Source of the DNA: Acinetobacter pollinis
Lineage (GTDB): Bacteria; Pseudomonadota; Gammaproteobacteria; Pseudomonadales; Moraxellaceae
NCBI RefSeq assembly: GCF_015627175.1
Contig: NZ_VTDQ01000009.1
Location: forward strand, 1-64,000
Length of the DNA: 64,000 bases
Direction: 5' to 3'
Shown one piece after another: positions 58,227-62,933 of this stretch (within the stretch, counting starts at the first letter, position 1; each line of letters opens with the position of its first letter). The position numbers and the translations under genes were made by a program. The notes beneath the pieces were generated by a model. The model had not been told where the DNA came from, ran no database searches, and saw only the letters and a program-made list of their open reading frames with translations.

Positions 58227-60032
<1,806 letters not shown>

Positions 60033-60115
60033 TCAACGAATCAAGCTCAACCAAAAACGGTGACGGATGTATCCTAATAAAAGAATAAATAGGGCATAAG
60101 TTTGAGGTGGCTTGA

Positions 60116-60212
60116 TTCCTACGCAGGTATTAACCTGATCAGGTTCAACGGTACTCACCTTTAAGTTAAACTTAGGTGATCTCAGCGAGTCATTACTCGC
60201 GCTCCGTCAAGC
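60116..60212 (-). promoter_or_regulatory. TPP riboswitch (THI element) of thiC
   Basis: On the minus strand the leader reads CTGAGA, a variable hairpin, then ACCTGATCAGG and TAATACCTGCGTAGGA, the conserved pyrimidine- and pyrophosphate-sensing parts of the TPP aptamer. About 105 nt separate it from the thiC start. When thiamin pyrophosphate is bound, thiC expression is expected to fall; no strong terminator is seen in the remaining leader, so control of translation start is more likely than attenuation. Confidence 0.96.
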
Positions 60213-60252
60213 GGTGTTCAAAGACTAGCACGTTTTAAAGAGTTGGGTAAAT

Positions 60253-61691: not shown

Positions 61692-62414
61692 TTGAGTGTA
61701 AAAAATCCAATGCTGGCACATCACATTTCTTCTCAGTTTAATGAGGAGTTACAAGAAGCAAATGCAAAATTTATGTCTATGGGGGGACTCATTGAACAGC
61801 AAGTTACTGATGCAATGCATTCATTGTTAGACAATGATATTGCTTTAGCGATAGATGTTCAGTACACAGAGACAACAGTAAATCGTTTAGAGCGAGAGAT
61901 TGATGAGTGCTTAACTATTATTCTTGCACGTCGTCATCCTGCTGCAATTGATTTACGTATGGTTATTGCCATGAGTAAAGCCAATACTGATTTAGAGCGT
62001 ATTGGAGATGAAGCAAATAAGATTGCAACGATTTCACAAAGTTTGAGTGAAGAAAGAAGTAATTCTTATGGCTTTATGGAAGCACGTCATATTGGAAATC
62101 AAGTTCGTGTGATGATTCATGAAGCATTAGATGCGTTCGCTAGATTAGATACCGAGCAGGCGCTGAAAGTATTACGTGCAGATGTAGATACCGATCGTGA
62201 ATATCAAGCAGCAACGCGTACACTTATGACTTATATGATTGAAGATGCACGTCAGATATCTCGTGTTTTAAATGTGCTTTGGGTACTACGTTCATTAGAG
62301 CGTATAGGGGATCATGCACGTAATATTGCTGAACAGGTAATTTACATTGTGAAAGGATTAGATGTTCGTCATGCGAGCATGGATGAGATTGAGAAGAAAG
62401 TACATGATGATTAG
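61692..62414 (+). CDS. phoU: Phosphate transport system regulator PhoU (TTG start)
   Basis: A 240-residue helical protein of two three-helix bundles, each with the metal-binding motif (DLERIGDEANKIA, about 95-107; SLERIGDHARNIAE, about 204-217). PhoU links the Pst phosphate transporter to the PhoR/PhoB system. The start is TTG at 61692 (MSVKNPMLAHH), with GGAG nine bases upstream; the first ATG gives a shorter product missing conserved residues. pst and phoBR genes are not in the window. A candidate small RNA converges on its 3' end. Confidence 0.93.
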   Translation: MSVKNPMLAHHISSQFNEELQEANAKFMSMGGLIEQQVTDAMHSLLDNDIALAIDVQYTETTVNRLEREIDECLTIILARRHPAAIDLRMVIAMSKANTDLERIGDEANKIATISQSLSEERSNSYGFMEARHIGNQVRVMIHEALDAFARLDTEQALKVLRADVDTDREYQAATRTLMTYMIEDARQISRVLNVLWVLRSLERIGDHARNIAEQVIYIVKGLDVRHASMDEIEKKVHDD

Positions 62415-62431: not shown

Positions 62432-62465
62432 AAAAAAAATCCCAAACCTTGGGGGAGATTTGGGA
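62432..62465 (-). terminator. Terminator of the candidate small RNA
   Basis: TCCCAAA/TTTGGGA stem with a 12-nt C-rich loop and an eight-T tail on the minus strand. On the plus strand there is no T tract, so it does not serve phoU. Confidence 0.85.
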
Positions 62466-62514
62466 CCAATAACTTACATATTTGTTATGTTACGAGAGTT
62501 AGTGTCTCTCTATG
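62432..62514 (-). ncRNA. Candidate small RNA between phoU and yggX
   Basis: A complete transcription unit is visible on the minus strand: -35 AAGACA (62549-62544), 17-nt spacer, -10 TATGAT (62526-62521), predicted start near 62514, hairpin 1 (GAGAG/CTCTC, 62510-62494), hairpin 2 (ACATA/TATGT, 62490-62476) and a terminator stem TCCCAAA/TTTGGGA (62465-62440) followed by eight T (62439-62432). The terminator loop contains CTCCCCC, which could pair with Shine-Dalgarno sequences. It encodes no ORF of note. The upstream gene yggX has its own terminator, so this is not just its tail. Homology is not known to me. Confidence 0.6.
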
Positions 62515-62520
62515 TGATAA

Positions 62521-62549
62521 ATCATATGAAAAATACAGGAATCTGTCTT
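62521..62549 (-). promoter_or_regulatory. Promoter of the candidate small RNA
   Basis: -35 AAGACA (four of six matches) and -10 TATGAT (five of six) with a 17-nt spacer, in the gap downstream of the yggX terminator. Confidence 0.55.
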
Positions 62550-62619
62550 TAAGCTTCTTGTAAGGATATGTGTTTTTATAAGCGTTGTTTGTAATAGTAT
62601 GTAATTATCATTAAATGAG

Positions 62620-62653
62620 AAAAATAGGGAGAAATATCTAACTCCCTATTTTT
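62620..62653. terminator. Terminator of yggX/argH transcript (bidirectional)
   Basis: AAAAATAGGGAG (62620-62631) and CTCCCTATTTTT (62642-62653), a 12-bp stem with T runs on both strands, 10 nt from the yggX stop. Confidence 0.9.
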
Positions 62654-62663
62654 TATATACAAA

Positions 62664-62933
62664 TTATTCTGGTTTCCAACCTTCAGCTTTTTCTATAGTT
62701 TCATCATTTGAAAAAAACTTTTCTCTTTGCTCTTCTAGAAATTTTTTTGCTTCGGGTTCAAACACATTTAAACGCTTCTCATTAATGAGGGTGGTTTGAT
62801 GTTGAAGCCATTCTTGCCATGCTTGTTTAGAAACATTTTCGAAAAAGAACTCGCCTTTTACTCCTGGAAAGGGAGCAAAATCGAGCCCATCCATTTCTTT
62901 TTGGTACTTCTGGCAAAAAACTTGACGTGCCAT
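62664..62933 (-). CDS. yggX: Fe(2+)-trafficking / oxidative damage protection protein
   Basis: An 89-residue protein matching Ygg[21 protein letters not shown] (with the single conserved Cys7), [20 protein letters not shown] (about 33-52) and [15 protein letters not shown]. It protects iron-sulfur proteins and DNA from oxidative damage, probably by handling Fe(II). It lies 11 nt downstream of argH on the same strand and ends at a strong terminator. Confidence 0.95.

Follow-up and report, generated by a model that had tools for sequence, protein, structure and literature searches.

A probable small regulatory RNA gene with a C-rich terminator loop, kept in most Acinetobacter genomes examined

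What, if anything, is encoded between phoU and yggX in Acinetobacter pollinis? The window analyzed here, the whole 64,000-nt stretch of one contig, carries these two genes near its end. An initial annotation had placed an undescribed-looking small RNA gene on the minus strand of the gap. Its elements, a promoter (AAGACA and TATGAT, 17 nt apart), an RNA of 83 nt predicted to start near 62514, two small hairpins, and a T8 tract, were all recovered where it had put them. The features of the locus are as follows.

62432..62514, minus: small RNA gene, predicted 83 nt (promoter and terminator geometry, fold z-score, conservation of synteny)
62521..62526, minus: -10 element TATGAT (sequence; positions 1, 2, and 6 identical in 25/25 representatives)
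62544..62549, minus: -35 region, AAGACA here and CATGA(C/T) in most species; it matches the consensus weakly
62551..62604, minus: likely activator array of ACA/TTACA half-sites, repeated in tandem every 10 bp or so (spacing compared with shuffles)
62494..62510, minus: 5' hairpin, GAGAG-loop-CTCTC (minimum free energy fold)
62476..62490, minus: second small hairpin (fold of this genome's RNA only; weak)
62438..62467, minus: intrinsic terminator stem-loop, 12 pairs and a loop of 6 (covariation over 42 aligned copies)
62451..62455, minus: proposed seed, the CCCCC run of the terminator loop (C4-C6 in 56/56 copies)
62432..62439, minus: T8 tract for termination and a possible Hfq-binding tail (sequence)
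62622..62651, strand unassigned: yggX terminator hairpin with T-runs on both sides (sequence)
62664..62933, minus: yggX, the neighbor that stays with the RNA (synteny)
61692..62414, plus: phoU, the convergent neighbor (synteny)

The promoter match proves nothing by itself, since a scan of 2 kb found four such sites compared with 7.3 ± 2.5 in shuffled sequence. The same scan found three terminators compared with 1.2 ± 1.1 in shuffles. The predicted RNA folds with a z-score of -3.48, which only one of 200 shuffles equaled, and of the 18 sequences folded, only one (L039, z -1.44) was not significant. By eye, about 14 of the 18, the window's RNA among them, have a 5' hairpin of changing sequence. 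The two small hairpins are less well supported, and the second is known from the fold of this genome's RNA only. The terminator stem, described at first as perfect, contains G-U pairs. Its loop is C-rich, as had been proposed, but it folds as CCCCCA and not as CTCCCCC, with the CU at the top of the stem. The hairpin assigned to yggX as its own terminator is indeed present at 62622-62651, but it also ends in T6 on the plus strand and could therefore serve phoU too. The longest closed ORF within the RNA is one codon, and the element occurs as a single copy in this genome. No Rfam family matched over the element at gathering score. RgsA (RF00628) was rejected as an identity, as its sub-threshold match is no better than chance (13.8 bits, E 1.6; gathering score 88.4 bits). 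The locus thus has what a stand-alone intergenic small RNA gene has: an intrinsic terminator, no ORF, and its own promoter, the last recognized by conservation only. The case for a small RNA gene rests on conservation.

In a BLAST search with the whole block, the matches, in 24 of 149 genomes with its own among them, fell mostly on the terminator, so conservation was read by synteny. The sample was made of the best 80 of 112 phoU relatives at named loci, plus the window; among the matches listed, the closest named species by PhoU is A. nectaris (93%). At 56 loci of this sample, yggX lies beside phoU inside the stretch retrieved, and the same RNA layout was found at 55 of them. Conservation in related genomes with the same gene order, whose absence was one of two outcomes that the initial annotation had named as refuting it, is present. 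One Moraxellaceae MAG (L113) has phoU and yggX without such an RNA. Pattern matching gave 59 copies, of which three (L065, L071, and L091) were removed as false and one (L094) was re-cut by hand. The resulting 56 aligned copies are the 55 syntenic loci and L066, whose contig ends early. In the type strain of A. baylyi, the copy is located at L111:2762-2854. In all 25 representatives (<80% identity), positions 1, 2, and 6 of the -10 element are T, A, and T. The -35 region, recognizable by CATGA, lies at a fixed distance from the -10 element across a variable spacer. The 5' half of the RNA diverges freely among copies, and conservation of the element is highest in the terminator. In the alignment used to compare drift along the RNA, which 45 of the 56 copies entered, the C-run is kept while the remaining sequence drifts. 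No ORF is conserved. In 37 of the 56 RNAs closed ORFs are absent altogether, and the longest in any copy is 19 codons. By this comparison of genomes, the predicted promoter, the RNA's own terminator, the C4-C6 loop, and the upstream 10-bp ACA repeats are conserved. The proposal of an independent non-coding transcription unit is supported by conservation of its promoter, its terminator stem, and the C-rich loop. We regard 62432-62514 as very probably a real, stand-alone gene for a small regulatory RNA, found in most of the Acinetobacter genomes examined.

Upstream of the -35 region, ACA repeats recur with a regular spacing. In 24 representatives (L066 was excluded, its block being too short), 45 ACA pairs lie 9-11 bp apart compared with 13.8 ± 3.8 in shuffles (0/500), although this is not a strict p-value since the representatives are related. 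The spacing peaks are at 10, 20, 30, and 40 bp. The window's block taken alone is weak for this array, with shuffle fractions of about 0.03 and 0.08. OmpR/RstA-type regulators have half-sites in 10-bp phase, and OmpR binds 10-bp tandem half-sites. From its spacing, the array may be a set of sites for an activator of this type, with BfmR or OmpR as candidates. The window has TACATACTATTACA, which was compared with BfmR/RstA boxes of the form TACA-N6-TACA, and the P. aeruginosa BfmR motif is given as TACAA-N3-GATACA, also in 10-bp phase, in an excerpt of PMC8025907. By eye, no such array was seen in 30 bfmR promoters, nor is it shared by 30 ompR promoters, and the pstS promoter is without it. 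The bfmR promoters (L114, L165-L193) have a strongly conserved CTTGTTTACAATGTAAACGTGTGTATATTGC-like block upstream, which is a near palindrome. Control through a Pho box had been expected since phoU adjoins. The Pho box consists of two 11-bp repeats of CTGTCAT (PMC11828411). Membership in the PhoB regulon was rejected, as the array is made of 10-bp ACA repeats and not 11-bp ones, and no Pho box was found by eye. In the same genome, pstS has a Pho box (CCGTCATATGAGTGTCAT), which differs from the ACA array.

At the other end of the gene, the terminator was examined for covariation in 42 of the 56 copies (39 distinct). Of the stem cells, 95.6% are paired, compared with 5-65% in slid controls, and two-sided changes occur in seven of ten terminator pairs. 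Four of five covariation measures exceeded all 500 shuffles; the fifth, further pair types, did not (12 vs 12.6). A run of C4-C6 lies within the last 42 nt in 56/56 copies. One loop-finding procedure located the terminator in 54 of the 56 and at least four C in the loop of 52 of those; the two exceptions (L035 and L036) were scored on an alternative pairing. Applied to the yggX side, in a permissive search without a shuffle control, the same procedure found 49 terminators in 55 loci, and 0/49 had even C3 in the loop.

Other C-rich-loop terminators occur in Acinetobacter, and the C-loop may therefore be a wider trait of the genus. Four genomes (G007, G008, G085, and G053; L223-L226) have a second conserved terminator with the loop TTTTCCCC (GCCTACATTTTCCCCAAGATGTAGG-T8) after a AAAAAGGA...TCCTTTTT hairpin, with no yggX within the stretch retrieved; this is perhaps a sibling C-loop RNA. 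A further C-loop terminator (GCCCAGTTCTCCCCCAAGA..CTGGGC-T8) is common to G113 and G084 (L231 and L232), and both of these genomes also have the yggX-side RNA.

How might such an RNA act? Somewhat more probable than not, in our judgment, is a stand-alone regulatory RNA of about 83 nt that is activated through the array, bound by Hfq, and blocks Shine-Dalgarno sites with its C-run, with phoU a mere neighbor. An OmpR/RstA-type response regulator, with BfmR or OmpR as the candidate, would bind the ACA array and, under a stress signal, activate the promoter with its weak -35 element. Hfq would bind the U-rich tail, and the exposed C-run would pair with the G-rich Shine-Dalgarno regions of several mRNAs, where pairing would block ribosome binding. 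A U-rich tail after the terminator, as in Hfq-dependent RNAs, is present (T8 at 62439-62432), and the RNA is probably trans-acting and Hfq-dependent. A role of the C-run as a putative anti-Shine-Dalgarno seed is plausible. Candidate targets were sought crudely, as TTGGGGG before ATG with a reversed control. This gave 35 strings vs 13 reversed in this genome and 40 vs 14 in A. nectaris (G103). Five strings are common to both genomes, and none of the five has a convincing ribosome site: one is differently placed and four are not followed by a convincing start codon.

The C-run could also bind a protein that the RNA titrates, with no seed role toward mRNAs. The retention of the C-run while the rest drifts would suit such a role, as would a second run of at least four C upstream of the terminator in several species (15/56 copies; absent in this genome). 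We know of no C-run-binding protein titrated in this way in Acinetobacter, which counts against it. In addition, several small RNAs are described in PMC4132741 as blocking translation with a C-rich UCCC motif as their seed. We consider titration unlikely, and pairing with mRNAs is the reading carried forward here.

The distribution of the RNA across the genus bears on whether phoU matters to it. A covariance model of the terminator (R1) was searched in 149 Acinetobacter genomes and matched in 134 at E <= 0.01 and in 109 at E <= 3.4e-5; with strict filters, 15 of the 149 had no match. Among the 109 strong matches, 88 face phoU convergently across a gap of 1-620 bp and 21 do not. In all 20 inspected of these 21, the RNA follows yggX on the same strand, and the same is true of 9 of the 12 inspected among weaker best matches away from phoU. 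In total, 29 of 32 inspected genomes with the best match off phoU keep the yggX-RNA order, the promoter, and the C-rich loop. Since the RNA travels with yggX, control of phoU is not its general role.

Altogether, 40 regions were examined, 29 with yggX beside the match and 11 without. Eight of the 11 are second matches in genomes with a stronger match by yggX or phoU. In G144, G098, and G014 (L227, L228, and L229), the sole listed match is weak and away from both genes. It is a C-loop terminator preceded by a C-rich stretch, which reads ACCCCCGAGG in two of the genomes and ACCCTTGAGG in the third. PhoU identity is low in these genomes (69-71%), no yggX is present in the 3.5-4 kb stretch, and the match may be a diverged ortholog or another RNA. 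A relaxed C-loop scan of the phoU side found nothing at threshold in 17 genomes, which are these three and 14 of the 15 without an R1 match. The same scan recovers known copies in 54/56 and 27/29 cases. Outside the genus, in a sample of the family, weak R1 matches occurred in 10 genomes (E 5.9e-4 to 8.6e-3).

These data weigh on the idea that the RNA acts on phoU by antisense pairing or transcriptional interference, which the initial annotation had raised. In the window, the RNA faces the 3' end of phoU across 17 bp. By eye, no obvious phoU terminator intervenes before the RNA gene there, so read-through from phoU could be antisense to the RNA, and the convergent order holds in the 88 strong matches noted above. 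Against this stand the 21 strong matches away from phoU; in the 20 of them inspected, and in 9 of 12 weaker ones, the whole architecture is kept beside yggX. Also, a conserved C-loop would be superfluous for antisense action, and in several species a terminator of phoU seems, by eye, to precede the RNA. Control of phoU by antisense pairing or collision finds no support as a conserved role, and we consider this explanation very unlikely for the RNA.

The company of yggX raises another origin, in which the RNA would lack its own promoter and be processed from the 3' UTR of a long transcript of argH and yggX. The RNA is downstream of yggX on the same strand in 55/56 syntenic loci, besides the 29 of 32 others inspected, as this origin would have it. 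However, in the permissive search described above, a terminator-like hairpin on the yggX side intervenes in 49/55 loci. Furthermore, the spacer is variable, whereas the -10 and -35 columns and the upstream array have been conserved and keep their distances. This origin is thus highly improbable, and a stand-alone gene with its own promoter remains the preferred reading.

Has this RNA been seen before? A TPP riboswitch is located at 60099-60216 of the window (minus, 70.1 bits), upstream of an ORF at 58227-60017 (minus) that we take to be thiC. Its counterpart was used as a distance anchor in relatives. Eight genomes were taken, from PhoU score and one named match, as members of the A. calcoaceticus-baumannii complex. 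In seven of them the RNA lies 5113-5127 bp from the riboswitch and in the eighth 4259 bp, and the predicted size of the RNA in the eight is 85-92 nt. In AB5075, the forward-strand position is predicted at about 3.66-3.72 Mb from the tmRNA anchor and at 3.677-3.683 Mb from the ABUWs076 probe site. Table 1 of the 2016 RNA-seq study by Weiss (PMC5320573) lists for AB5075 art73 (ABUWs079; 104 nt) and art74 (140 nt), which lie 5116 bp apart on the same strand. With three anchors in eight relatives, place and strand agree with art73/ABUWs079, with one relative deviating. We infer that art73, which is alike in strand, size class, and position, is the A. baumannii ortholog of the RNA, an identity drawn from geometry; art74 would be the TPP riboswitch leader. 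The RNA is therefore not wholly undescribed, contrary to what had been claimed for it, as its ortholog by position is an RNA-seq transcript of 2016. Beyond the art73 row, no naming of it was found in the literature, although it may be listed in supplements or in the 2018 list for ATCC 17978. The main text of PMC5320573 has art73 only once, in the table, and gives no function there. Neither phoU nor yggX appears in the main texts of PMC5320573, PMC11472050, PMC12802169, PMC12646401, PMC3976366, PMC5538643, and PMC6978653.

The least credible explanation reduces the element to a conserved terminator, or an insulator of transcription, in the gap from yggX to phoU, with an incidental promoter. It would account for conservation being strongest in the terminator. 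Against it, termination needs no fixed C-loop (0/49 neighboring terminators have one), the promoter columns and array are conserved too, the element persists where phoU is located elsewhere, and in A. baumannii its position agrees with that of an RNA-seq transcript.

A stand-alone regulatory RNA of the kind preferred here can be compared with known systems. OmrA and OmrB of enterobacteria are small RNAs activated by the response regulator OmpR. The activator of the window RNA is a candidate only, and no similarity to OmrA/OmrB in sequence or seed is claimed. LhrC of Listeria monocytogenes is under two-component control. Its C-rich UCCC motif occurs in the loop of the terminator, in loop A, and in the linker, and covers the ribosome site of the target (PMC4132741); the window RNA may work alike. 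LhrC is multicopy and its control by LisRK has been demonstrated in that source, whereas the window RNA is single copy and its control is deduced. Unlike in LhrC, the C-run of this genome's RNA is in the terminator loop only. LhrC was not among the Rfam matches at E <= 5, and the likeness is an analogy with no claim of sequence kinship. Within Acinetobacter, Aar is an independent small RNA of about 100 nt whose CUCC seed sequesters ribosome sites, according to PMC11472050 and PMC12802169. Its locus is different (861839 in AB5075 vs about 3677044 for the counterpart of the window RNA), and its seed is at nt 29-32 and not in the terminator loop.

A broader reading is that the RNA is a genus-wide, general anti-Shine-Dalgarno repressor, acting through the C-run of its terminator loop under an OmpR/RstA-type stress regulator. 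It would then be a Gram-negative counterpart of LhrC, and possibly one of several C-loop RNAs that share targets. We put this forward tentatively, as a possibility rather than an expectation.

According to the abstract of PMC12802169, more than 100 small RNAs are listed for A. baumannii, and few have validated targets. The element described here is very probably a conserved small RNA gene that had already been glimpsed as art73. The species that retain the RNA range from those of nectar to close relatives of A. baumannii, and for the window element there is no matching Rfam family. Its fixed loop, as a proposed 5-nt seed, and its 10-bp operator array, as a candidate regulator site, would offer two exact handles for tests.
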